A stretch of 64,000 bases of DNA from positions 310,001 through 374,000 of the forward strand of contig JAKOVQ010000016.1 of NCBI GenBank assembly GCA_029781975.1, in the 5' to 3' direction. This document shows, in pieces, positions 15,646-49,282 of this stretch; within the stretch, counting starts at the first letter, position 1, and each line of letters begins with the position of its first letter. The DNA is from Acidobacteriota bacterium. Its GTDB lineage: Bacteria > Acidobacteriota > Thermoanaerobaculia > UBA5066. Under the pieces are notes generated by a model. The model was not told the origin of the DNA. It was given only the letters and a program-made list of their open reading frames with translations, and did no database searches. The position numbers were made by a program, and so were the translations under genes.

Positions 15646-16449
15646 ATGTCGGAGAAGAAGAAGTGGGCCCTCGTGCTGGGAGCGTCCTCGGGGTTCGGGG
15701 AGGCGTGCGCCGTCGCGCTCGCGAGGACAGGCCGGAACGTCTTCGGCGTCCACCTCGACCGCCGGGCCACCCTCCCGAACGTCGAGCGGATCACCGGCCT
15801 CCTGGAGGAGGCCGGCGCCCGCGCCGAGTTCTTCAACGTGAACGCGGCGGACGCCGCCCGGCGGACCGAGGTCCTCGACAGGGCGTCGGCCATCCTCGCC
15901 GCGGAAGGGCAGGCGGAGGGAGGCGTCGACGTCCTCCTCCATTCGCTCGCCTTCGGGACGCTGAAGCCCTTCGTGGCCGACGAGCCGTCGGAGCGGATCA
16001 CCCAGGCGCAGCTGGAGATGACGATGGACGTCATGGCCAGCTCGCTCGTCTACTGGGTGCAGGAGCTCGTCGGGCGCCGGCTGATGGGCGCCGGCTCGCA
16101 CGTCTTCGCGATGACGTCGGCGGGCGGCCACCGGATCTGGCCCTCCTACGGGGCCGTCTCCGCGGCGAAGTCCGCGCTCGAGAGCCACTGCCGGCAGCTC
16201 GCCGTGGAGCTCGCGCCGCGCAAGATCGCCGTCAACGCGATCCAGGCGGGCGTGACCGACACCCCCGCGCTCCGGAAGATCCCGGGGAACGACCGGATGA
16301 TCGAGCGGTGCCTGGCGGTCCACCCGGCGAGCCGGCTGACGACGCCGGCGGACGTCGCCGCGGTGATGGCCGCCCTCGCGCGCCCCGAGACGGTCTGGAT
16401 GACAGGGAACGTCCTCCGGGTCGACGGCGCCGAGGACGTCGTCGGCTGA
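15646..16449 (+). CDS. SDR protein of enoyl-ACP reductase (FabI/FabL) type
   Basis: 267 residues. A divergent short-chain dehydrogenase. The nucleotide-binding motif is GASSGFGEA (12-20). The catalytic pair is Tyr168 and Lys175, a Y-x6-K spacing that marks enoyl-ACP reductases rather than the Y-x3-K of classical SDRs. The segment LLHSLAFGTLKPF (about 97-109) and the INAIQAGVTDTPA-like region near 215-227 also fit FabL/FabI. The likely role is the last step of fatty acid elongation, NAD(P)H-dependent, but the substrate is not proven. A classical SDR starts 2 bases after its stop. Confidence 0.82.
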   Translation: MSEKKKWALVLGASSGFGEACAVALARTGRNVFGVHLDRRATLPNVERITGLLEEAGARAEFFNVNAADAARRTEVLDRASAILAAEGQAEGGVDVLLHSLAFGTLKPFVADEPSERITQAQLEMTMDVMASSLVYWVQELVGRRLMGAGSHVFAMTSAGGHRIWPSYGAVSAAKSALESHCRQLAVELAPRKIAVNAIQAGVTDTPALRKIPGNDRMIERCLAVHPASRLTTPADVAAVMAALARPETVWMTGNVLRVDGAEDVVG

Positions 16450-16451
16450 CG

Positions 16452-17261
16452 GTGCTCGAGGTCCCGAAGGGCTCCTGGGCCCTCGTCACCGGGGCCTCGG
16501 CCGGGATCGGGGAGGCGCTCGCGGAGCGGCTCGCCGAGCGCGGCATCCCGCTCCTCCTGACGGCGCGCTCGGCCGGGCGGCTCGCGGAGCTCGCCGCGGC
16601 GTGGCGCGCACGCTACCGGGTGGAGGTCGAGGCCGTGCCGTGCGACCTGTCGGCGCCGGGGGCCGCCTCGGCCCTCTTCGACGCGACGGAGGGAGCGGGG
16701 CGGCCCGTCGACCTCCTCGCCGCGAACGCGGGGTTCGGCTGGTACGGGCCGCAGGTCGAGCACCCGCTCGACCGGACGCTCGAGATGCTGCGGCTCAACG
16801 TCGTCGGGACGACCGAGCTCGTCCACCTGGCGCTCGGCGCGATGCGGCGAAGGGGGCGAGGGAAGATCCTGGTCGTCGCCTCCACGGCGGCGTTCCTCCC
16901 CGTCCCGTACATGGCCGTCTACGCGGCGACCAAGGCGTACGACCTCTCCCTCGCCCACGCGCTCCACGAGGAGGCCGCCCCCGACGGCGTGACGGTGACG
17001 GCGCTCTGCCCCGGGACGACGCGGACCCGCTTCCACCGCGTCGCGGGGCTGGCGGAGGGGGAGCGCGTCCGGTTCCCCGCGCTCGACCCGGGAACGGTGG
17101 CCGAGGCCGGGCTGCAGGGCCTCGAGAGGGGGAAGGCCGTCGTCGTCCCGAACCTCCTCGACCGGCTCTGGATCGCGTCCGGGCGCCTCGTCCCGCGCAC
17201 CTGGCCTCCGCGGATCGGCGCGGCGGTCTTCTCGCGGCTCCGGCGGGCCGGCCCCGCCTGA
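16452..17261 (+). CDS. Classical short-chain dehydrogenase/reductase
   Basis: 269 residues. The Rossmann motif TGASAGIGEA, NAGFGWYG and the catalytic YAATK (Y-x3-K) with Ser in VVASTAAF are all present. The type resembles the DltE/YqjQ-like SDRs annotated as oxidoreductases acting on hydroxy or keto acyl groups. The start is GTG, 2 bases after the preceding gene, so co-translation is expected. The substrate is unknown, and the partner suggests lipid metabolism. A weak inverted repeat (17290-17306) follows before the convergent ftsX. Confidence 0.88.
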   Translation: MLEVPKGSWALVTGASAGIGEALAERLAERGIPLLLTARSAGRLAELAAAWRARYRVEVEAVPCDLSAPGAASALFDATEGAGRPVDLLAANAGFGWYGPQVEHPLDRTLEMLRLNVVGTTELVHLALGAMRRRGRGKILVVASTAAFLPVPYMAVYAATKAYDLSLAHALHEEAAPDGVTVTALCPGTTRTRFHRVAGLAEGERVRFPALDPGTVAEAGLQGLERGKAVVVPNLLDRLWIASGRLVPRTWPPRIGAAVFSRLRRAGPA

Positions 17262-22970: not shown

Positions 22971-24053
22971 ATGTCGTCCGTCGTCGTCCCGCCGGAAGCC
23001 CCGGCCCCTCCCCCCGGGCCCGCCGAGCCCGGGTTCGAGCCCGTCCCGGACGCCGGGGCCGCGGCGCCCCAGCAGCTCCTCGGGACCCTCGGCCGGCCGA
23101 CGCCGTCGAGCGTGGCCCGGCGGAGCGCCGAGGACGGCGCCCCGCCGATCGTCTCGCGCCTGGGCCACATCACGCTGGGCCTCTGGTTCCCCGCGTTCCG
23201 GAGCCTCGCCTCGCGCGTCCCCCCCGAGGCTCTCGCCGCGCTGAGCGTCCGGACGGTGGAGCGGGCGATCTGGGCCCGCCGGAGCGTGCGCCAGGCCGTC
23301 CTGGCGAACATGGCGGCGGTCCTCGAGCGTCCGCCCGGGGACGAGCGGGTCGAGGCGGCGGCCCGCGAGATGCTGGCGCACCACTCGCGGACGTGGATCG
23401 ACCTGCTCCGCTACACCGGGCGCCCTCCCGCGGATCCCACGACCCTCGTCGCGCGGCAGGAGGGGACGCACCACCTCCTGGCGGCCCGCCGCGGCGGGCG
23501 CGGGGCCATCCTCCTGACCGGGCACGTCGGGAACTTCGAGCTGGGCGGCCTCTTCCTCCGGGCGGTCGGCCTCCCCGTGGCGGTCGTCTACCAGCCCGAC
23601 CCGTCTCCGGTCGTCGAGCGGCACCGGGCCCGCGCCCGCGACCAGATCGGGGTCCGCTCGCTCCCGGTCACCTCGCCGCTCGCGTTCGTCTCCGTCCTCC
23701 GGAGCCTGGAGGAGAACGTCTTCGTCGCGATCCAGGGCGACCGCGACTACGCGGGGACGGGGCTCCGCCTCCCCTTCCTCGGCAGGAGCGCGTCGTTCCC
23801 CGTCGGACCGTTCAAGCTGGCCGGCGCCTCGGGCGCGCCGGTCCTGCCGGTCTTCGTCCTGAGGGAGCCGGACGGCCGCTACCGGACCGTCGTCGAGGAG
23901 CCGATCCCGGTCGCGCACCCCCGGTCGCACCAGGCGCGCGAGGAGGCCGAGCGCGAGGCGCTGGAGCGCTTCGTCTCCGTCCTGGCGCGGACGATCCGCG
24001 CCCACCCGACGCAGTGGTACTGCTTCACGAAGTTCTGGGAGCCGCTCGGGTGA
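22971..24053 (+). CDS. LpxL/HtrB-type lysophospholipid acyltransferase
   Basis: 360 residues, somewhat longer than LpxL at the N-terminus, where the first 45 residues are Pro-rich and probably disordered. The acyltransferase motif is GHVGNFE (His185, Glu190), followed by LGGLFLRAVGLPVAVVYQ and GDRDYAGTGLRLPFLG. The family moves acyl chains onto lipid A precursors or other lipids at the inner membrane. The N-terminal membrane helix of true LpxL is not clear, so a non-lipid-A substrate is possible. A TAGAAT -10 lies at 22928-22933. It is convergent with the ketosynthase-like gene. Confidence 0.85.
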   Translation: MSSVVVPPEAPAPPPGPAEPGFEPVPDAGAAAPQQLLGTLGRPTPSSVARRSAEDGAPPIVSRLGHITLGLWFPAFRSLASRVPPEALAALSVRTVERAIWARRSVRQAVLANMAAVLERPPGDERVEAAAREMLAHHSRTWIDLLRYTGRPPADPTTLVARQEGTHHLLAARRGGRGAILLTGHVGNFELGGLFLRAVGLPVAVVYQPDPSPVVERHRARARDQIGVRSLPVTSPLAFVSVLRSLEENVFVAIQGDRDYAGTGLRLPFLGRSASFPVGPFKLAGASGAPVLPVFVLREPDGRYRTVVEEPIPVAHPRSHQAREEAEREALERFVSVLARTIRAHPTQWYCFTKFWEPLG

Positions 24054-24108: not shown

Positions 24109-25062
24109 TCAGCCGCCGGCGGCGGTGAGGACGAGGGCGGCGGCCGGCCCCTCCGGGTCGCGGACGAGGACGGCGCACGCGCCGCCCCCGCGACCGATCC
24201 GCTCGACGGCCCGGACCGCGCCGAGCGCTCCTGCGGCGCCGAAGGCGTCGCCGTCCGGCGGCTCCGGTCCGAGGATCTCCCCCGCGAGGCCCGCCCGGCG
24301 CAGGGGGCCGGGATCGAGGCAGCCGTCGAGATCGGGGGACGGGAGGACGAGGGGGAGGGTCCCGAGCGGATGGCCCGCGGCGCGCAGCCAGGCGGCGAGC
24401 CGCTCGCGCGCGCGGACGGGATCGGGCTCGAAGAGAAGGGTCCCGTCGGCGACCGCGGCGAGCGGCGCGGCGCCGGGGCGGCCGGGGCGCTCCAGGACGA
24501 GCGCGGCCCCGCCCCCCGCGAACGTCGGGGCACGCGCCCCGAAGCGGCGACGCGCCGCTTCCCACGCGGGGAGGAGCGCCGGGTCGGCACCGTCGACGCC
24601 GACGGCGACGACGAGCGCTGCGCTTCCCGCTCGGACCCGGTCGGAGGCGGAGAGGATCGCCTCGAGCCCGGCGGTCGGGCCGGAGAGGATCGCCTCCGAG
24701 ACGCCGCCGAGGTTCCAGGCCACGGCGAGCTCGCCGCAGGCGCTGTTGTGGACGGTCTGGGCGAAGACGGCAGGGGAGGGAGGGTCGGCCCCCTCGGCGC
24801 CGCGCAGGAGGCTCCTCGCGTGCGAGAGGATGCTCCCGCGGCAGCCCCAGGCGCTGCCGACGACGACGCCCGCGTCCGCGTCGGGGGAGGCGGGCCTGGA
24901 GACGCCGGCACGCGCGAGGGCGCGCGCCCCGGCGAGGAGCGCGGTCCGGGCGTAGTGGTCGACGCGCCGGAGGCGGGCGAGATCGACGGGAGACGGGTCG
25001 GCCGACGCGCCCGGCCCCTCGTCGGCGCGGGCGGCGGCGGTGACGACCACGCGACGGGTCAC
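24109..25062 (-). CDS. Ketosynthase-like protein without active-site residues (CLF-like)
   Basis: 317 residues with the thiolase-like layout of a beta-ketoacyl synthase N-terminal half, but shortened. At the active-site Cys position the sequence reads SGPTAGLEAI. The region matching the second catalytic His reads GDAFGAAGALGAV, where active enzymes have GHTLGAAG. It therefore cannot be a working condensing enzyme. It resembles chain-length-factor-like or Ketoacyl-synt_2 partners seen in aryl polyene and type II polyketide loci. The start is GTG overlapping the upstream ketosynthase stop (GTGA), so the two are made together, probably as a heterodimer. Confidence 0.75.
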   Translation of the reverse strand: MTRRVVVTAAARADEGPGASADPSPVDLARLRRVDHYARTALLAGARALARAGVSRPASPDADAGVVVGSAWGCRGSILSHARSLLRGAEGADPPSPAVFAQTVHNSACGELAVAWNLGGVSEAILSGPTAGLEAILSASDRVRAGSAALVVAVGVDGADPALLPAWEAARRRFGARAPTFAGGGAALVLERPGRPGAAPLAAVADGTLLFEPDPVRARERLAAWLRAAGHPLGTLPLVLPSPDLDGCLDPGPLRRAGLAGEILGPEPPDGDAFGAAGALGAVRAVERIGRGGGACAVLVRDPEGPAAALVLTAAGG

Positions 25063-26222
25063 GCGCGCTCCAGGACGAGGACGGCGTTCGTCCCGGCGAA
25101 GGCGGACGACGTCGACGCCGCGAACCGCGGGACGGCCTCGAGGGTCCGCGGGGCCCCGGCGACGACGTCGAGCGGGCACTCGGGGTCGGGCTCCTCGAAG
25201 CCCGCGGTGGGCGGCACGATTCCGGTCGACAGGACGAGGACCGTGAGGGCGGCCTCGATCGCCCCCGCCGCCCCGAGGGTGTGCCCGATCGCGCCCTTGA
25301 CGGAGTGGACCGGGAGCGAGCGGAGACGTTCGCCGAAGACGGACGCCAGGCCGAGCGCCTCCATCCGGTCGTTCAGCCGGGTGGCGGTGCCGTGCGCGCT
25401 GACGAATCCGACGGCGGAGGGCTCGGCGCCCGCGTCGCGCAGGGCGGCCGCGAGGGCACGCGCGAGGCCGCTTCCCTCGGGGCTCGGGCGCGTCGGGTGG
25501 AAGGCGTCGGCGGCGGACGCGGCTCCGCGGAGCCAGGCGAGGGGGCGGGCGCCGCGCGCGGCGGCGGCCTCGGCCGACTCGAGGAGGAGGCAGCCGGCGC
25601 CCTCGCCGAGCCCGAGCCCGTCGCGCCGGACGTCGAAGGGCCGGACCGTCCCGGGGCTGAGGGCGCGGAGCGAGTCGAAGCCGGAGAAGACGAACTCCGA
25701 GAGGGCGTCGAAGCCCCCCGCCAGGGCCCGGTCGACCCGGCCCGACCGGATCCACCCCGCGGCCTGCGCGATCGCGGCCGCTCCCGAGGCGCACGCGACG
25801 GAGACCGTCTGGACGGGCCCCGCGACGCCGGTGCGCCGCGCGAGGAGCCGCGCCGGCGAGGAGAGCTCCGAGGCGTCGGTCCAGGGTTCGCCGGCGAGCC
25901 ACGCGGTGAAGGCGCGGTTCCCGCCGAGGGTCGTCCCCAGGACGATCGCGCTCCTCTCCCCCGCGAGGGTCCCCTCCGCCCCGTCGAGCGCCTCTCCCGC
26001 CGCCGCCAGGAGGAGGCGATGGGCGCGCTCGGTCACCTCGCCGAGGGGATCGGGGGGGACCGACGGCACCTCGCACGCCTGCCGCGCCAGGTACGGCGAG
26101 GGGTCGAAGAGGCGGGCCGGCGCGAACGCGCTCGCGTTGGCGAGGAGGCCGGCCCGGAACGGCTCGACCCCCACGCCGAACGCGGAGACCACCCCCAGCC
26201 CTGTGACGGCGACCGACCTCAT
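25059..26222 (-). CDS. Beta-ketoacyl-ACP synthase (KAS I/II type)
   Basis: 387 residues. The catalytic triad is complete: Cys144 (VSVACASGAAA), His277 (SAHGTAT) and His314 (GAIGHTLGAAG). The start MRSVAVTGLGVVSAFG is typical. It condenses malonyl-ACP with an acyl chain. It is translationally coupled to a ketosynthase-like partner without active-site residues. This is not the arrangement of housekeeping fabF (no ACP gene nearby), so it is probably a specialised lipid or polyene condensing pair. An ACP, a dehydratase and a ketoreductase are not in view. Confidence 0.9.
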   Translation of the reverse strand: MRSVAVTGLGVVSAFGVGVEPFRAGLLANASAFAPARLFDPSPYLARQACEVPSVPPDPLGEVTERAHRLLLAAAGEALDGAEGTLAGERSAIVLGTTLGGNRAFTAWLAGEPWTDASELSSPARLLARRTGVAGPVQTVSVACASGAAAIAQAAGWIRSGRVDRALAGGFDALSEFVFSGFDSLRALSPGTVRPFDVRRDGLGLGEGAGCLLLESAEAAAARGARPLAWLRGAASAADAFHPTRPSPEGSGLARALAAALRDAGAEPSAVGFVSAHGTATRLNDRMEALGLASVFGERLRSLPVHSVKGAIGHTLGAAGAIEAALTVLVLSTGIVPPTAGFEEPDPECPLDVVAGAPRTLEAVPRFAASTSSAFAGTNAVLVLERA

Positions 26223-26342: not shown

Positions 26343-27839
26343 ATGAAGATCGTCATCTCCTCGGACGAGAAGCAGCCGAACCACCGCTACCGGGGGGCGC
26401 TCCTCTGCTCGGGCGCGCTCCCCGAGGAGGTGGAGGTCGTCGTCCCGGGGGACGCCCTCCCCGAGACGTTCGACGGCCTCCTCGTCGCGGGCGGCGCCGA
26501 CGTCGACCCGGCCCGATACGGCGAGGAGACCTCGGCACCGGGCGTCGAGGTCGTGGCCGAGCGCGACGCCCTCGACCTGGACCTCCTCGGGCGGGCCCGG
26601 GACGGGGGCGCCCCGGTCTTCGGGATCTGCCGGGGACTCCAGATCGTCAACGTCGCGCTCGGCGGGACCCTCTGGCAGGACCTCCCGACCCAGCGGGACC
26701 GCGGCGTGCCGCACGCCTTCGGGCGCGAGGACGGCTGGCCCCCGGACCACCCGGCCCACGTCGTGAGGCCCGCGCCGGGGAGCGCCGGCGGACGGATCGG
26801 GGACCTCCTCCGCCGGGCCGGGGAGCTCACCGTGAACTCGCGCCATCACCAGGCGGTGAAGGACCTCGCCCCCGGCCTCGTCCCGGTGGCCGCCTCCCCG
26901 GACGACCTCGTCGAGGCGTTCGTCGGCGAGCGAGGGCCGTTCCTCGCCGCCGTCCAGTGGCACCCGGAGGACCTCGTCGCCGAGCCGGTCCAGAAGGCGC
27001 TCTTCGTCCGCTTCGTCGAGGCGGCGCGCCGGGCCGAGGCGGCGAGGGGACGGCTCCCCGCCCCTCTCCTGGAGGTCGTCCTCGAGGGAGCGATCCCCGT
27101 CATCCGCTTTCGCCGTCCGGGCCGCCGGAACGCCCTGACCGCTTCCGTCCTCCGGCTCCTCGCCGAGACGGTCGAGGCCCTCGAGAAGGACGCCACCGCC
27201 CCGGCGATCGTCCTGACGGGAGCCGACGGGGACTTCGCGTCCGGCCCGGACCTCGACGTCCTCGCCGCCCAGGTCGAGGCGCGCGACGAGGAGGGGTTCC
27301 GCGAGACGCTCGAGGCGGGTAAGCGCGCGGTCCTCGCGATCGTCGGCTCCGGCAAGCCCGTCGTCGCGGCCCTCGACGGCCTCTGCGCGGGGACGGCGCT
27401 CGGGCTCGCCCTCGCGTGCGACGTCCGCGTCGCCTCGCGCGCGGCGCGGCTGGCCCCCCACACCGCATGGGGCGGGCTCTCTCCCGGCGACGGGACGAGC
27501 GCGCTCCTTCCCGCTCTCGCCGGACCGGGGGCCGCGCTCGACCTCGTCCTCTCGGCCGACGAGGTCCCCGCTTCGCGCGCCCGGGAGCTGGGCCTCGTCG
27601 ACGGCGTCGTCGACGACGGCTCCCCCCTGACCGCGGCGCTCGCCCGCGCCGTCCGGTGGTCCGAGCGCCCCGGGGCGACCCGGGCCGCCACGAAGCGGGC
27701 GGTCGCCTCCGGCCGCATGTCGTCCGTCGCCCAGGCCCTCGACAGGGAGATCCAAGACCAGCTCGACCTGTTCCGGAGCGGGGCGCTCGCCCAGAGGCGC
27801 GCGCGCCGGCCCCGGCTCGAGCCCGAGGAGATTGCATGA
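26343..27839 (+). CDS. Glutamine-amidotransferase (GATase1/PuuD-like) - crotonase fusion
   Basis: 498 residues in one continuous frame. Residues 1-225 are a class I amidotransferase of the gamma-glutamyl-GABA hydrolase type. The nucleophile is Cys96 (FGICRGLQIVN), with NSRHHQAV and His207/Glu209 (VQWHPED). Residues about 232-470 are an enoyl-CoA hydratase/isomerase fold: PVIRFRRPGRRNALTASVL, the oxyanion site FASGPDLDVLA, and DGLCAGTALGLALACDVRVA. The linker is short (AEAARGRLPAP). A TAGACT lies at 26281. It overlaps the next gene by ATGA and is divergent from the ketosynthase. The combination is not one I know, and the joint function is unclear. Confidence 0.85.
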   Translation: MKIVISSDEKQPNHRYRGALLCSGALPEEVEVVVPGDALPETFDGLLVAGGADVDPARYGEETSAPGVEVVAERDALDLDLLGRARDGGAPVFGICRGLQIVNVALGGTLWQDLPTQRDRGVPHAFGREDGWPPDHPAHVVRPAPGSAGGRIGDLLRRAGELTVNSRHHQAVKDLAPGLVPVAASPDDLVEAFVGERGPFLAAVQWHPEDLVAEPVQKALFVRFVEAARRAEAARGRLPAPLLEVVLEGAIPVIRFRRPGRRNALTASVLRLLAETVEALEKDATAPAIVLTGADGDFASGPDLDVLAAQVEARDEEGFRETLEAGKRAVLAIVGSGKPVVAALDGLCAGTALGLALACDVRVASRAARLAPHTAWGGLSPGDGTSALLPALAGPGAALDLVLSADEVPASRARELGLVDGVVDDGSPLTAALARAVRWSERPGATRAATKRAVASGRMSSVAQALDREIQDQLDLFRSGALAQRRARRPRLEPEEIA

Positions 27840-30960: not shown

Positions 30961-33900
30961 TCAGGCCCCGGCCTCGTCGGCCAGGGACTTCACGAGCCCG
31001 GCGTACCTCCCCTCGATCACGAACCCGAGCCGGTAGAAGAACTGGGGCCGGAAGAAGCCGGTGGTGAGCGAGCGGATCCCCGCCGTCGTGAGCCGCTTGC
31101 AGAGGTCCTGGAGGAGCGCGGCGGCCACGCCCTTGCGCTGGTAGCGCTCGGAGACGACGACCTTGTCCATGTGCGCGGTCCCGGCCTCGGCCTGCACCTC
31201 GTAGAAGAGCCCCCCCATGAGGTTGCCGCGCTCGTTCACCGCGACCAGGAAGCGGTGCTCCGGGCGGAACTGGACGGGGAGCTTCGCGGCGAGGAACGTC
31301 CGGTGGAGCCGCCCGACCTCCCGCGGGCTCGAGGCGTGGCGGATCTGGAAGGGGTTCCCGTCGGCGTCGGCGACGGTCACCACCATGTCGCTCTGCCTCA
31401 CGCCGCCGGGGGCGAACGCGACGAGCTCGGCCTCGTCCTCGGGACGGAGGTACGGGTAGGAGAGGCGGGTCAGGAAGTAGTTCGCGTCTGCCGGGAGGGT
31501 GAGGTTGGCGCGCAGGTCGGTCACCGCGCCGCTCAGCTCGGCCGCGGGGAGCTCCCGCGTCCGGAGCCGCCGGATCAGCTCCTCGAGGCCGTCGGCGAGC
31601 GGCCCCTCCGCGTGCCGGAAGACCGTCTGGCGGAAGAAGCGGGCGCGCGCCTCGGGGTAGGAGGAGCGGAGCCGCGCGAGCCCGTAGGTCCCGAAGAGCT
31701 CCTGGAGCGTCGCCGCGCGCGCGGCGAGCGTGGCGTCGGGGTTGATCTGCGACCAGCGCGCGTAGCGCTGGGCCGCGAAGTAGAGCTGGCGCGGCATGAA
31801 CCCCCGCCGCTCGACCGAGTCGAGGAAGGAGGCCAGGGCGGTCCTCAGGCCGTCGTCGGGCCCTGCGTCGGCCTCGGCCAGGACCTCCCTCAGGCGGGCG
31901 CCCCCCTCGTCCTCCCCGAGGACCTCGAGGACGGCGGAGAAGACGACGTCCCAGCCGACGAGGCCCGCGAGGCGCGGGTGGGCCGCCTCGACGCTCCCGA
32001 CGAACTGGCCGCGGAGCGAGCGGAGCAGGGCGACCAGCGTCGTGAAGCGCTCCCGCGCCGAGATGGAGACCAGCCGGGCCCCGGTCTGGTAGTCGTGCAT
32101 CGGGACGATCACGTTCGACGGCTTGGGGTCCGCGACGACGAGGCGCCGTCCCGTGCGGTCCCAGAAGTCGAGGTAGCAGCTGAGCGCGCTCCAGGCGGCG
32201 TAGGGCCAGACGCCGCGGAAGACGTCGTCCTGGGGCCTCCGGGAGAGCCGCTGCAGGGCGTGGTCGAGCGTCTCGCCGGAGATGAACTCCTCGGTCCAGA
32301 GCCCGTGCCCCTCCCAGCGCCCCCCGAAGTCCTCGACGAGCGGCCCCTGCTCGCGCGCCTCCCCGCAGACGATCAGCCAGTCGATCTCCTCCTGGACCGC
32401 CTCGTCCGAGAGCCCGCGGCTCACGTTGACCGCCAGGTCGAACTGGTCGCGCACCCGCGTCTTGACGGCGACGCGGTAGACCGACTTGCCGTGGGCCTCG
32501 CCGAGGAGCCGGACCCAGACGCCCCCCGGGAGGATGTCGGCGAGGGTCACCGTCCGCCCCTCGGCGAAGAGGAACCCGGCCTCGGAGAGGAGCGGCGTGG
32601 TCCGGAACGCGGCGAGCAGCTGCTGGCGCGTCGCGGCGTCGACGTCGTCGTCGAACGCGACGACGTCGTCCCAGCGGTACTCGAGGCCGGTCTCGGGGTC
32701 GACCGCGATCCGGGAGGGCGTCCCGAGCCAGCGGCGGAAGCCCTCGGTGAGGCGTCCCCGCGCGGCGGAGGCGAGGCGCCGGACCCTTTCGGAGGGGGCC
32801 AGCATCTGGAGCCTCGTCAGGACGGCGCGGAGCCTCCGGTAGTTCGCGGGGTGGGCCCCGCCGTACTCGGCCAGGAGCGACAGGAAGTCGCCCGCGACCT
32901 TCGTCGCCGCCTCGGGGAGGTCGGGGCGCCGGCAGCGCGCCTCGGCCTCGGCGACCAGCGCCTCGAGCCGCTCCGGCGAGAGGCCCCGCTCGACGAGGAC
33001 CTCCGTCGTCTCGCCGTCGAGGACCGCGGCGCCGGCGGCGCCCGAGTCGAGGAACCGGCGGACCGTCTCCGGGAACCGCGCCGGCACCTCGGCGAGCGCG
33101 AGGAGCTGGAAGGCGCGGCGGGCAACGGCGAGCGACCCGCTCCGGGCGCACCGGGCGAGGACCCGCCGGGCGGCCTCGACGACGGGCCCCTCCTCCGTCC
33201 CGAGGGCGGTCTCCAGGACCCGGACGCCGAGGAGGGCGTCCTCCGGTCCGGGAGCGTCGACGAGGAGGGCGGCGCGGTGGAGGTCCATTAGCCCCGGCGC
33301 CTTCTGCCGCTGGAGCGACGTCCCCGCCTCGCGGTCCGCCTCGGTCGGCTGGTAGGGCGCGGCGCGGCGGAGCCACGCGAGCTCGGCCGGAGCCCGGCGC
33401 CTCCCGTGGCGGAGCTCGGCGTCGAGGGGCGCGAAGCCGACGAGCCCGTCGTTGCCGAGCCAGAGCCGCGGCGTCGAGAGGAGGACCCCCAGGTCGAGCG
33501 TCCGTCCGCCGCCGGCGTAGACGGCGGAGCCCACCTGGACCTCCTCCTCGCCGAGCCGCCGGACGGAGAGCGACGTCCCGAGCGACGCGAGCGTCAGCTC
33601 GCCCTCCTCGACGCGGAGGTCCTGCGCGGTGACGCCCAGCGCCTGGAAGAGCCAGTTGGGGAAGGTGACCTGCACCCCTCCGACGGCGAAGGTGGTCCGC
33701 CGGTAGAGCAGGCGGATCACGTCGGCGAAGTTCCGCTCGATGACCTTGCGCCGGAACGTCCCCTTCGGCGTCAGCTCGCCGTGCGCGGCGTCGAAGTCGC
33801 GGTCCACCACGGCGAAGTCGACGATCCGCTCGTACGGGGCGAGGAACGAGTTCGCCGTCACGACGAGGGAGCGGAAGTGGGCCTTGAGCTCGGCGGGCGG

Positions 33901-35739
33901 GAGCTTTCCGAGGTCGAGCTCCCGGAACGCGGGGTTCGGGTAGATGAGCGCCGTGTTGTTGGGCCGGTTGTCCCCCACCAGGAAGACCCGGCCGACCGAC
34001 TCGAAGTCCCGGAAGAGGTTCTCGATCTTCTGCGGCGCGATCGTCTCGCCCTTGACGTTCTTGTAGATCTCCTTGACGCGGTCGATGATCCTCACGTAGC
34101 CGTCCCCGTCGGCCTCGAAGAGGTCGCCGGTGCGGAACCACCCCTCCCCGTCGACCGCCGGCTCGAGGCCCTCGTCGCCGAGGTACCCCATCGCGACGTA
34201 GGGCCCGTGGACCAGGAGCTCCCCCTCCTCCGAGAGGGAGATCTCGACGCCCGGCAGGGCGATCCCCTGGGTGTCCTCCTTGTAGCGGAACGGCGGCGTC
34301 ATCGTGATCCCGCCCGTCGCCTCGGTCATGCCGAACCCGCTCACCAGCTCCACGCCGTTGCGCTGGAAGAAGCGGAAGATCTCGGGGTCGAGGTACCCGG
34401 CGGCGGAGATGCCCCACCTCAGCCGGTCGCCGACGACGCGCCGGACGGCGGCGGCGACCACGGCGTCGTCTTCCGCCTCCACGTCCACCTCCTGCCGGAC
34501 GAGGTCGTAGAGCTGCATCCACTTCATCGGCACGCTGATGAAGATCGACGGGCGCTCCTCGCGCATCTGCCGGGCGAGCGTCTCGATCGCGGGGTTGGCG
34601 GCGAAGCAGTAGGTCGCGCCCCAGAAGATCGAGCCCTGCAGCTCCAGGAAGCGCCCGAACGTGTGGAAGAGCGGCAGGTAGGCGAGGTAGACGTCGTCCT
34701 CGCCGATCTCGGGCAGCGCCAGCGCGCGCGCGAACCGCTTGAAGACCATGTTGCGGTTCGAGAAGCAGATCCCCTTGGGCATCCCGGTCGTCCCCGACGT
34801 GTACATCACCGTCGCGAGCTCGTCGATCCGGACCCGGTGGCGGCGGTCGATCAGCTCCTCCGCCGGCACCTCGGCCGACCGCTCGAGCACCTGCTCGAAG
34901 GAGAGGACGCCGCGGTGCGAGGCGGCGTCGGGGTCGAGGGCGACCAGCGTCGCGAGCCCCGGCAGGCCGTCCCTGCACTTGAGCACCTTCTGGAGCTGCT
35001 CGCGCGACGAGACGAGGACCGTGTCGACCCGCGCGTGGCCGAGGATGTACGCGACGTCGGCGTCGGTCGCCGTCGCGGGGACCATCACGTCGACGATCCC
35101 CGAGGAGAGGCAGGCGACGTCGGTCAGAGCGCTCTCCAGCCGGTTCTCCGAGAGGATGGCGACGCGCCCGCCCCGCCGGCCGGTGACCGCGAGGAGGCCG
35201 CGCGCGAGGAGCTCGACCCGCCCGGCCGCCTGATGCCAGGTGACGGTCCTCGTGGCGTCGCCGTCGGGGACGCGGAAGAGAGGACGGGCGCCGTAGGCCG
35301 CGGCCCGCTGGGCGAAGAGCTCGCCGAACGTGTAATGGGAGGCGTCGACGAGCCCCAGGATCCGCGCGGCCCACGCCGCGGTCTCCCCGGCGTCGGAGAT
35401 CCTCCGGAGGAGAGCGCTCCTCCGGAGGAGGTCGAGCAGGTCCCACGCGGCCTGGCGCGCCTCGACGGGAGGGGGGGCGCCGGCGGCCGCGAGGCGCGCG
35501 GCGCAGCGGGCCGAGAGGGCCGCGAGGCCCTCGAGAGACACCAGGCGGAGGAGCCGCTCTCCGTCCCGCCGGTCGCCGAGGAGGGCGACGACGTCGGCGT
35601 CGGTCCGGGCGGAGGCCTCGGGGCCTCGGGCGGCAGCGCCCCGAAGGGCCTCCTCGAGGAGCCCGGAGGCCTCCTCGTCCGATGCGTGCGGGAGGCGGTC
35701 GACGAGGTCGGGGGCGGAGGGCGAGAACCGCGCGTCCAT
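30961..35739 (-). CDS. Acyl-CoA synthetase - kinase-like - GNAT fusion protein
   Basis: 1592 residues in one frame. Residues about 130-720 are a complete AMP-forming acyl-CoA ligase: MYTSGTTGMPKGICFSN (about 311), GFGMTEATGG, GWFRTGDLFEADGDGYV and the Lys motif LTPKGTFRRKVIERN. Residues about 720-1060 are helical (repeat-like). Residues about 1065-1260 look like a protein-kinase/APH-like fold: GKSVYRVAVK, hinge WTEEFISGETL (about 1147) and a loop VADPKPSNVIV (about 1199). The C-terminal about 140 residues are a GNAT acetyltransferase with RYQRKGVAAALLQ. The start at 35739 has GGGAGG 8 bases upstream. There is no transmembrane segment. The kinase-like middle is inferred only from motif order. 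Confidence 0.85.
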   Translation of the reverse strand: MDARFSPSAPDLVDRLPHASDEEASGLLEEALRGAAARGPEASARTDADVVALLGDRRDGERLLRLVSLEGLAALSARCAARLAAAGAPPPVEARQAAWDLLDLLRRSALLRRISDAGETAAWAARILGLVDASHYTFGELFAQRAAAYGARPLFRVPDGDATRTVTWHQAAGRVELLARGLLAVTGRRGGRVAILSENRLESALTDVACLSSGIVDVMVPATATDADVAYILGHARVDTVLVSSREQLQKVLKCRDGLPGLATLVALDPDAASHRGVLSFEQVLERSAEVPAEELIDRRHRVRIDELATVMYTSGTTGMPKGICFSNRNMVFKRFARALALPEIGEDDVYLAYLPLFHTFGRFLELQGSIFWGATYCFAANPAIETLARQMREERPSIFISVPMKWMQLYDLVRQEVDVEAEDDAVVAAAVRRVVGDRLRWGISAAGYLDPEIFRFFQRNGVELVSGFGMTEATGGITMTPPFRYKEDTQGIALPGVEISLSEEGELLVHGPYVAMGYLGDEGLEPAVDGEGWFRTGDLFEADGDGYVRIIDRVKEIYKNVKGETIAPQKIENLFRDFESVGRVFLVGDNRPNNTALIYPNPAFRELDLGKLPPAELKAHFRSLVVTANSFLAPYERIVDFAVVDRDFDAAHGELTPKGTFRRKVIERNFADVIRLLYRRTTFAVGGVQVTFPNWLFQALGVTAQDLRVEEGELTLASLGTSLSVRRLGEEEVQVGSAVYAGGGRTLDLGVLLSTPRLWLGNDGLVGFAPLDAELRHGRRRAPAELAWLRRAAPYQPTEADREAGTSLQRQKAPGLMDLHRAALLVDAPGPEDALLGVRVLETALGTEEGPVVEAARRVLARCARSGSLAVARRAFQLLALAEVPARFPETVRRFLDSGAAGAAVLDGETTEVLVERGLSPERLEALVAEAEARCRRPDLPEAATKVAGDFLSLLAEYGGAHPANYRRLRAVLTRLQMLAPSERVRRLASAARGRLTEGFRRWLGTPSRIAVDPETGLEYRWDDVVAFDDDVDAATRQQLLAAFRTTPLLSEAGFLFAEGRTVTLADILPGGVWVRLLGEAHGKSVYRVAVKTRVRDQFDLAVNVSRGLSDEAVQEEIDWLIVCGEAREQGPLVEDFGGRWEGHGLWTEEFISGETLDHALQRLSRRPQDDVFRGVWPYAAWSALSCYLDFWDRTGRRLVVADPKPSNVIVPMHDYQTGARLVSISARERFTTLVALLRSLRGQFVGSVEAAHPRLAGLVGWDVVFSAVLEVLGEDEGGARLREVLAEADAGPDDGLRTALASFLDSVERRGFMPRQLYFAAQRYARWSQINPDATLAARAATLQELFGTYGLARLRSSYPEARARFFRQTVFRHAEGPLADGLEELIRRLRTRELPAAELSGAVTDLRANLTLPADANYFLTRLSYPYLRPEDEAELVAFAPGGVRQSDMVVTVADADGNPFQIRHASSPREVGRLHRTFLAAKLPVQFRPEHRFLVAVNERGNLMGGLFYEVQAEAGTAHMDKVVVSERYQRKGVAAALLQDLCKRLTTAGIRSLTTGFFRPQFFYRLGFVIEGRYAGLVKSLADEAGA

Positions 35740-47867: not shown

Positions 47868-48209
47868 GTGTCGGAGGAGCCGGTCCGCATCCCGATCGAG
47901 GACGAGATCGACCTCCACGCGTTCCGCCCGGGCGAGACGGCGTCCCTGGTCGCCGAATACGTCGAGGAGGCGGCCCGCCGCGGCCTGACGACGGTGCGGA
48001 TCGTCCACGGCCGCGGCGCCGGGGTCCAGCGGCGGATCGTCCGCGCCGCGCTGGAGCGCTCGCCCCTCGTCGTCTCCTTCGCCGATGCCCCTCCGGCGTC
48101 CGGAGGGTGGGGCGCGACCGTGGCCACCCTGGATCCCCGGCGCTCGAACGTCGCTCGCGGGGCGGACGGCCCCCGGCTAGACTCCGACGGAAAGCACGGA
48201 CCTTCATGA
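47868..48209 (+). CDS. Smr-domain protein
   Basis: 113 residues, a single Smr domain. The conserved DLHAF (with EDEIDLHAFRPGE) and VHGRGAGVQR blocks are present. Smr domains are nucleases or nucleic-acid-binding domains seen in MutS2 and in stand-alone proteins, and the stand-alone role is not known. The start is GTG, inferred from the block order and a -10 element 8 bases before. The stop overlaps the FabH-like start (ATGA). Confidence 0.85.
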   Translation: MSEEPVRIPIEDEIDLHAFRPGETASLVAEYVEEAARRGLTTVRIVHGRGAGVQRRIVRAALERSPLVVSFADAPPASGGWGATVATLDPRRSNVARGADGPRLDSDGKHGPS

Positions 48210-49282
48210 AAACAGAGAGAACGACCGTCATCCGCAGCTCCGGCGGCTACGTCCCGCCCCGCGTCGTGACCAACGGGATGCTCGCCCGGATCATGGACAC
48301 CACCGACGAGTGGGTGGTCCCCAGGACCGGCATCCGCGAGAGGCGGTACGTCGAGCCGGGCGTCGGTCCGGCGGAGATCGGGGAGAAGGCGGCCCGGGCG
48401 GCGCTCGACGCCGCGGGCCTCGCCCCGTCCGACATCGACTTCGTCATCTTCGCGACGATGACGCCCGACCACTACTTCCCCGGCTCGGGAGGGCTCCTCG
48501 CGGCCCGCCTCGGGATGACGACGACCCACGCGCTCGACATCCGGATGCAGTGCGCCGGGTTCCTGTCGGGGCTCCACACCGCGGACGCGTTCATCAGGTC
48601 GGGCGCCTACCGGCGGGTCCTCCTCGTCGGCGCCGAGGTCCACACCGGGCTGATGCCGTGGCCGAAGGGGGTCTGGGACGTCCTGTACGGGGAGGTCCCC
48701 GGGCCGTGCGACCCGTTCTGGTACCAGAAGATCACGCAGCTCCGCGACCGGGCCGTCCTCTTCGGCGACGGCGCGGGCGCGCTCGTCCTCGAGGCGAACG
48801 AGAGCGGCGACGGGCGCGGCTTCCTCGGCTTCGTGATGTACACGGACGGGCTGAACTGGGACAAGCTCTACGTCCCCGGCGGCGGCTGCAAGTCCCGCCC
48901 GTACTTCACGCCCGAGATGTTCGAGAGGATGGGCACCGTCCCGATCGTCGAGGGGCGGCAGGTCTTCCGCCTCGCCTCGCAGCTGATGCCCCAGGCCGTC
49001 CAGGAGGTCCTGTCCCGCTGCGGGAAGGGCCTCGACGACCTCGACATGCTCCTGATGCACCAGGCCAACCTGAGGATCAACGAGGCCGTCCAGAAGGTGC
49101 TCGGCCTGCCGGACGACCGCGTCCACAACAACATCCAGAAGTACGGCAACACGACGGCGGCGACGCTCCCGCTCGTCTACGACGAGGCGGTGAAGCTCGG
49201 GAAGGTCGAGAGCGGCGACCTCGTCTGCTTCACCGCGCTCGGGGCCGGCCTCCACTGGGGGGCCGGCCTCGCCGTCATCTGA
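48206..49282 (+). CDS. 3-oxoacyl-ACP synthase III (FabH)-family protein
   Basis: 358 residues. The thiolase-fold triad is intact: Cys116 (DIRMQCAGFL), His285 (LMHQANLRI) and Asn315 (YGNTTAAT). An insert with PKGVWDVLYGEVPGPCDP (about 152-169) is a feature of longer FabH-like enzymes, not of the housekeeping one. It probably starts fatty acid or specialised acyl chains. It is coupled to an Smr protein. Its last 8 bases overlap the convergent DJ-1-like gene. Whether it is the main FabH of the cell cannot be told. Confidence 0.88.
   Translation: MKTERTTVIRSSGGYVPPRVVTNGMLARIMDTTDEWVVPRTGIRERRYVEPGVGPAEIGEKAARAALDAAGLAPSDIDFVIFATMTPDHYFPGSGGLLAARLGMTTTHALDIRMQCAGFLSGLHTADAFIRSGAYRRVLLVGAEVHTGLMPWPKGVWDVLYGEVPGPCDPFWYQKITQLRDRAVLFGDGAGALVLEANESGDGRGFLGFVMYTDGLNWDKLYVPGGGCKSRPYFTPEMFERMGTVPIVEGRQVFRLASQLMPQAVQEVLSRCGKGLDDLDMLLMHQANLRINEAVQKVLGLPDDRVHNNIQKYGNTTAATLPLVYDEAVKLGKVESGDLVCFTALGAGLHWGAGLAVI

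Follow-up and report, generated by a model that had tools for sequence, protein, structure and literature searches.

The 64,000-nucleotide stretch of DNA analysed here (the window) covers positions 310,001 to 374,000 of contig JAKOVQ010000016.1 from an Acidobacteriota bacterium (assembly GCA_029781975.1), whose genome comprises 5.37 Mb on 54 contigs. Our subject is a pair of coupled genes on its minus strand. The first (25059..26222) encodes a KAS II-like ketosynthase (KS) of 387 amino acids in which the active-site residues Cys144, His277 and His314 are intact. The second (24109..25062) encodes a KS-like partner of 317 amino acids that resembles a chain-length factor (CLF); its GTG start overlaps the KS stop codon by four bases, and all three active-site residues are lost. 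Both the frame and the residue numbering of the KS had been given by an earlier annotation made from the letters alone (hereafter the sequence-only reading) and were borne out, as was its description of a GTGA-coupled partner devoid of equivalent residues. In agreement with the same reading, the gene calls around the pair, read by eye, show no adjoining gene for an acyl carrier protein (ACP), a dehydratase (DH) or a ketoreductase (KR).

The KS scores above the Pfam cut-offs for both ketoacyl-synt and Ketoacyl-synt_C. Its Cys-His-His set is invariant in all seven orthologous KSs of one alignment (7/7) and in the six of a separate alignment (6/6). In the KS tree the protein formed a clade of its own (100/100), outside FabF, the aryl-polyene ketosynthase ApeO and the KSs of two further KS-CLF pairs encoded on contigs C4 and C8 of the same genome, and the window, C4 and C8 KSs represented three separate clades. 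A second tree placed it also outside the KSs of another type of pair, here called type D. In the approximately unbiased (AU) test, a clade joining the C8 KS to that of the window received p 0.03 and one joining the C4 KS to it p 0.089; profile comparison found the C4 KS to be the nearest. A joint clade with ApeO received p 0.24 and was neither established nor rejected, and the KS stood as a separate clade in both trees.

The partner passes the PF00109 cut-off (46.7 bits). Among six aligned partners, all of which lack the active-site Cys (6/6), the catalytic Cys is replaced by Pro in two, the window partner included, and by Arg in four. The His277 position is a gap in five of the six and Trp in the other, and that of His314 holds Asp, Glu or Pro in all of them. 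A profile of the partner ranked the CLFs of Acidobacteriota first (type D, 6.5e-20; C4, 6.4e-17; C8, 3.2e-13), followed by FabF (3.4e-11), its own KS (1.3e-10) and the aryl-polyene CLF ApeC (4e-7). In a tree of 48 rows, the partner, ApeC, the C4 CLFs and the D CLFs lay on one side of a branch (99/95) with all active KSs opposite, and a clade uniting the partner with FabF was rejected (AU p 0.00014). The sequence-only reading had likened the partner to CLFs or to Ketoacyl-synt_2 proteins: the former likeness is upheld by profile and tree, whereas the latter match stays below its cut-off (23.6 vs 25 bits). The structure predicted for the partner as a single chain, from a six-row alignment, has the fold of a ketosynthase, its second half shortened (mean predicted local distance difference test, pLDDT, 68; predicted template modelling score, pTM, 0.76). 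Foldseek searches with this model returned the B chains of the ishigamide KS/CLF at ranks 1-3.

Orthologues of the partner were found in nine of the 14 genomes of one Acidobacteriota family, spread over five genera (g1, g2, g3, g6 and g7). The best partner piece per genome scored 101-447 bits; across 148 genomes of the class, with up to 15 first-look candidates scored per genome, no other match exceeded 74 bits. A wider scan of the collection, which was pattern-based and may miss distant kin, returned six loci, assignable to six genomes of the family, and a plasmid search with the partner gave no match. As far as these collection-wide and class-wide searches reach, the pair appears to be restricted to this family. 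KS and partner occur together in eight of its genomes and are both absent from five, and in G012 a contig breaks off at the locus, leaving only a C-terminal piece of the partner. Wherever the pair could be read, the two genes are adjacent (8/8) and the four-base start-stop overlap is kept (8/8).

The partner frame is open across the five genera. In G002 and G007 the partner is split over two contigs, and the TGA codons flagged inside partner matches correspond to the natural stop in G002 and to a contig-end junction in G007. At the end of the G007 contig (L042:7958-7999), the sequence before the partner fragment matches the partner in no frame and looks like adapter or assembly residue. The ratio of non-synonymous to synonymous substitution rates (dN/dS) of the partner was 0.26 between G010 and G008, 0.34 and 0.24 for the N-terminal parts compared with G002, and 0.26 for the C-terminal part between G001 and G007. 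For comparison, the KS gave 0.27 and 0.24, the neighbouring acyltransferase 0.15 and GatB 0.28. Because orthologues exist, the overlap is kept in every readable pair and dN/dS lies at 0.24-0.34, these data indicate that the partner is a gene under selection and neither a pseudogene nor debris.

These results bear directly on the possibility that the locus holds an ordinary FabF-type enzyme and a decaying, functionless duplicate of it. Both proteins obtain their best NCBIfam scores from FabF models, far under the cut-off (the KS reached 281.3 bits on TIGR03150, under 493.75), and a joint clade of KS and FabF was not firmly rejected, being borderline at AU p 0.085 in one tree and 0.0485 in the tree that included the D KSs. 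However, the open frame, the dN/dS values, the conserved overlap and the rejection of a partner-FabF clade all speak against decay, and the genome has a separate FabF in its fatty acid synthase (FAS) operon. We consider this explanation very improbable. The sequence-only reading had asked for a phylogeny with ApeO, CLFs and FabF, and had named a FabF paralogue with a degraded copy as the outcome that would overturn it; that outcome is disfavoured, and the phylogeny itself answered in part, placing the partner on the CLF side while leaving the KS outside ApeO and its kinship to FabF borderline.

The two subunits also differ at the residues that would contact the carrier protein. We take FabF R69 and K70 (counted from the first residue) to be the ACP-docking positions. 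Both are basic in six of six FabF sequences, in five of six partners and in none of the seven KSs of the pair. The same division is seen between ApeC-type CLFs (5/5) and ApeO-type KSs (0/5). PMC8358021 names two neighbouring arginines of Acinetobacter ApeC, Arg30 and Arg31, as likely ACP contacts, and describes the ACP of the ishigamide complex as contacting mainly the CLF. Judging from the alignment, Arg30 and Arg31 would fall in the same columns as FabF 69 and 70. This pattern suggests that neither subunit of the pair would work well alone; an active site in one subunit and ACP-docking arginines in the dead one would be a simple sign of an obligate heterodimer.

Based on these findings, we propose, with a probability of about 0.78, that the two genes specify one condensing enzyme, a KS-CLF-type heterodimer in which the partner docks the ACP and shapes the pocket while the other steps are carried out in trans. 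The intact active site, the dead partner, the conserved coupling, the joint presence, the purifying selection and the CLF-side phylogeny are observed; from these sequence features we infer that a heterodimer forms, that the partner docks the ACP and that it controls chain length, as well as the choice of ACP and the product. Using its Cys-His-His set, the KS would take up a chain carried by the ACP and lengthen it by decarboxylative condensation with malonyl-ACP. The partner, having lost catalysis and kept both the fold and the Arg-Arg patch on the docking helix, would help to dock the ACP, since the KS has lost this patch. It would also close the chain pocket and so fix the number of rounds, and with it chain length, as in known KS-CLF pairs. 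The ACP, ketoreduction and dehydration would be supplied in trans, most likely by the general FAS or by a KS-less cassette on contig C42 that is described below. As a guess, the product may be a specialised acyl chain of the envelope.

Several observations, in addition to the FabF-model scores, weigh against this proposal. The KS matches the ishigamide KS (1.7e-68) and Thermus FabF (3.1e-68) equally well. The partner's profile matches the Streptomyces CLF weakly (3e-4), and this CLF lies, together with the C8 CLFs, on the active-KS side of the 99/95 branch, while the ApeC branches of that tree are long. A sister relation between the partner and its own KS, as would result from an old tandem duplication, gave AU p 0.09 and is hence not rejected; a recent tandem duplication of the KS is disfavoured by profile and tree, with the same p value giving no rejection. 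FabF chains came within an order of magnitude of the top Foldseek match and headed the VIA ranking (Z 28.9) with wide ties, so fold alone does not discriminate. The docking pattern is not universal either: C4 pairs keep the patch in KS and CLF alike, in C8 and D CLFs just one of the two is basic, neither the KS nor the CLF of Streptomyces has a complete patch, and the window KS is gappy in the alignment at these positions. Finally, the pair has no known cognate ACP, and the nine PF00550 matches in the genome are all on contigs other than this one, so that the ACP in the cluster that characterises a minimal polyketide synthase is absent here.

Among the described systems closest to the pair is the highly reducing type II KS-CLF of ishigamide biosynthesis, Iga11-Iga12 (PDB 6KXD), which likewise joins an active KS to a dead KS-like partner and whose structures were the best or tied-best solved-structure matches for both window subunits. 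Unlike that system, the window pair has no linked ACP, KR or DH, and its partner is only 317 amino acids long with a shortened C-terminal half. The cispentacin pair AmcF-AmcG, a heterodimer of a KS and a "cyclization factor" according to PMC10698177, also combines a KS with an odd, shortened partner. However, the window KS falls below the cut-off of the AmcF model NF058662 (245.6 vs 325 bits), and the partner gave no match at E 0.1 to the AmcG model, which is 157 positions long. The C4 and C8 pairs of the same genome share with it a CLF without the Cys and a KS that is adjacent (C4) or one ACP gene away (C8); they differ in that C8 has its own ACP and a FabZ-like gene among lpxB and lpxD, and C4 has a 4HBT thioesterase. 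Pairs of type D (L129-L135 and L139) occur in five other families of the class and are closest by profile to the window partner; their neighbours are HMG-CoA-reductase-like or FAD-dependent oxidoreductase-like genes, as labelled by eye.

The sequence-only reading had seen in the pair the core logic of aryl-polyene and type II polyketide loci, and a cut-down aryl-polyene system resembling ApeO-ApeC must be weighed. PMC8358021 reports that ApeO and ApeC form a heterodimer and that Acinetobacter ApeC has a single thiolase fold. The partner stands next to ApeC in the tree, sharing with it one side of another branch (95/84). ApeC is a small CLF with an Arg-Arg pair on its docking helix, and E. coli ApeC carries Arg in place of the Cys, as four of the six partners do; an Azospirillum polyene-type cluster also has an adjacent KS and CLF, with one base shared. 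A further point in favour is an AMP-binding ligase that lies in the window 4.7 kb from the KS. This gene (30961-35739, minus strand) encodes a 1592-amino-acid protein in which some 800 residues matching no Pfam family separate an N-terminal AMP-binding ligase from a C-terminal GNAT domain. However, the three relatives with long enough flanks (L036, L037 and L040) show no such ligase next to the pair, and no counterpart over 900 amino acids was found in these or in L041, which ends early.

Other evidence goes against the aryl-polyene assignment as well. In contrast to the polyene-type loci examined, no thioesterase, LolA, MMPL or ACP gene lies near the pair, nor is a DH gene beside it; of the set of ACPs, ligase, KR, DH, thioesterase and LolA/MMPL that marks an aryl-polyene cluster, the window holds only the ligase and two short-chain dehydrogenase (SDR) genes. 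A genome search for DUF3261 was uninformative, as no control gave a match. The KS does not fall inside ApeO in the trees, the partner profile reaches ApeC with a modest E-value only, and the window partner, unlike Acinetobacter ApeC, keeps a second, reduced half. The aryl-polyene label therefore fails, because the pair lacks the linked genes and the phylogeny does not group the KS with ApeO, and we regard such a system as quite unlikely. Of the sequence-only reading, an active KS with a CLF-like dead partner is supported; neither an aryl-polyene locus nor the adjacent acyltransferase as a member of the unit was retained.

As had been described from the letters alone, that acyltransferase gene (22971..24053, plus strand) is convergent with the pair and encodes an LpxL-like protein. 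The protein belongs to the Lip_A_acyltrans family (PF03279, 105 bits). It contains the H-x4-E motif, falls under the cut-off of the LpxL/LpxP model TIGR02207 (42.4 vs 297.8 bits), and has its best model in PRK07920, also below cut-off (117.3 vs 209). Its presence raises the possibility of a dedicated lipid-A pathway in which the pair and the acyltransferase act together on very long chains, like the rhizobial FabF2XL-FabF1XL-LpxXL proteins. The order of a KS, a KS-like and an LpxL-type gene resembles that of the acpXL-lpxXL cluster (PMC11901934), and in eight of nine pair-bearing genomes at most one gene separates the acyltransferase from the pair. The ninth, G006 (83% complete), has the pair and no acyltransferase orthologue. 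Orthologues (55-64% identity) are present in 13 of the 14 family genomes, including all five that lack the pair, and in each of these five the acyltransferase is followed after 25-115 bases by the amidotransferase gene that flanks the pair in the window, at the same junction. Adjacency is for this reason no evidence of joint function, and the acyltransferase was set aside as a functional partner on that ground. A separate lipid-A-linked CLF-ACP-KS cluster exists in the genome, and we deem a lipid-A pathway of this type unlikely. The acyltransferase instead belongs to a block of conserved synteny that has either acquired or lost the pair, and it is probably not a dedicated part of the pair unit. 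In the four loci read from genus g3, an extra gene stands between the acyltransferase and the pair (L039:12983-14620, L038:17232-18926, L154:514-2238 and L105:4828-6567); the copy in G010 gives a match to the penicillin acyltransferase-like AAT family.

On the other side, the KS is adjoined by a divergent gene (26343..27839, plus strand) whose product joins a glutamine-amidotransferase-like domain (Peptidase_C26) to an enoyl-CoA hydratase domain. Genomes with the pair have it between the acyltransferase and this gene, apart from the two of genus g2, where the amidotransferase gene does not adjoin the KS. The fusion also occurs in G005, G006, G002 and the pair-less G003, and the hydratase half is missing in the pair-less G004 and G011 (genus g5). 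We rejected the hydratase as a pair-specific DH, given its occurrence in G003 and its absence beside the KS in the two g2 genomes. The two SDR genes (15646-17261), 6.8-8.5 kb from the pair, encode one protein with its best match to the enoyl-ACP-reductase-type PF13561 and one with a KR match, and likely counterparts exist in the pair-less G004, G009 and G011. A FabH-like (KAS III) gene (48206-49282, plus strand) is the second of the genome besides the FabH of the FAS operon, and a similar gene is present in the pair-less G011 (L106).

The sequence-only reading had called for a genome-wide search for the missing ACP, DH and KR. ACPs were found elsewhere, in the FAS operon and on contigs C8 and C42, and none near the pair. 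Contig C27 carries a plsX-fabH-fabD-fabG-acpP-fabF operon, with the ACP and KS assigned by Pfam and the other labels by sequence reading. A FabA/Z-family gene lies on C2, a second KS-KR-DH cluster on C15, and the C4 pair, whose CLF is found in 12 of the 14 family genomes, is accompanied by its 4HBT thioesterase. The C8 cluster (L030:12918-19518) comprises a FabZ-like gene, lpxB and lpxD (by reading), a Cys-less CLF, an ACP, a KS and a DUF374 gene. In six relatives (L085-L090) the FabZ-like gene, CLF, ACP and KS likewise stand together, with lpxB in five and lpxD in four; LpxL-like and FabG-like genes follow in four of the six, and the other two contigs end at the KS. The C8 cluster may be an acidobacterial equivalent of the very-long-chain acpXL cluster of rhizobia, and the tree suggests that its CLF arose apart from other CLFs. 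For this C8 set, and not for the window pair, the rhizobial acpXL-lpxXL cluster (PMC11901934) is the nearest analogue. The C8 ACP (54% or more identity) occurs in seven of the 14 family genomes and the window pair in nine. As the C8 ACP is absent from five of the nine pair-bearing genomes (G002, G007, G008, G010 and G012, with G007 being 77% and G012 87% complete), C8 is no general supplier, and we rejected it as the sole source of ACP, DH and KR.

The cassette on C42 (L150:7892-11862) encodes a glycosyltransferase, a polysaccharide deacetylase (DUF3473), a malonyl-type acyltransferase, a KR, an ACP and a small hotdog-like protein, the last without a Pfam match and named by eye. No KS gene was found within the 8-17 kb read around it in its own genome and in six relatives (L177-L182), among which the G004 contig begins near the acyltransferase and the hotdog gene of G003 was not cleanly called. 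The acyltransferase is present in all 14 family genomes (14/14), although only as fragments or split in G006, G007, G008 and G009; for this reason the cassette is not dedicated to the pair and was rejected as its specific supplier. By its distribution, the C4 pair would fit the cassette better than the window pair does. The split pathway that the sequence-only reading had considered is plausible, with this family-wide KS-less acyltransferase-KR-ACP-hotdog-like cassette as a concrete candidate, whereas a minimal cluster with its own ACP was not found. As a tentative extension, we suggest that the family may possess a split, highly reducing type II synthase, in which the KS-less cassette would be served in trans by interchangeable KS-CLF modules encoded elsewhere, namely the nearly universal C4 pair and the patchily distributed window pair.

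Acidobacteria are already listed among 14 phyla with KS-CLF pairs in PMC10132072, and this kind of enzyme is therefore known. We found no title or abstract opening naming this particular pair, in a search that lay outside most subscription journals. The pair departs from known systems in having no linked cluster, in the partner's intermediate size and in its restriction, as far as the searches reach, to one family. KS-CLF pairs are usually read within a cluster that reveals their product; here the pair appears to be under selection in five genera with no such cluster around it. If the interchangeable modules suggested above are real, the gain or loss of a two-gene module would change the chain length or the product of a shared line. 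And if the pair and the cassette cooperate, genome mining based on clusters would miss or misname such pathways.

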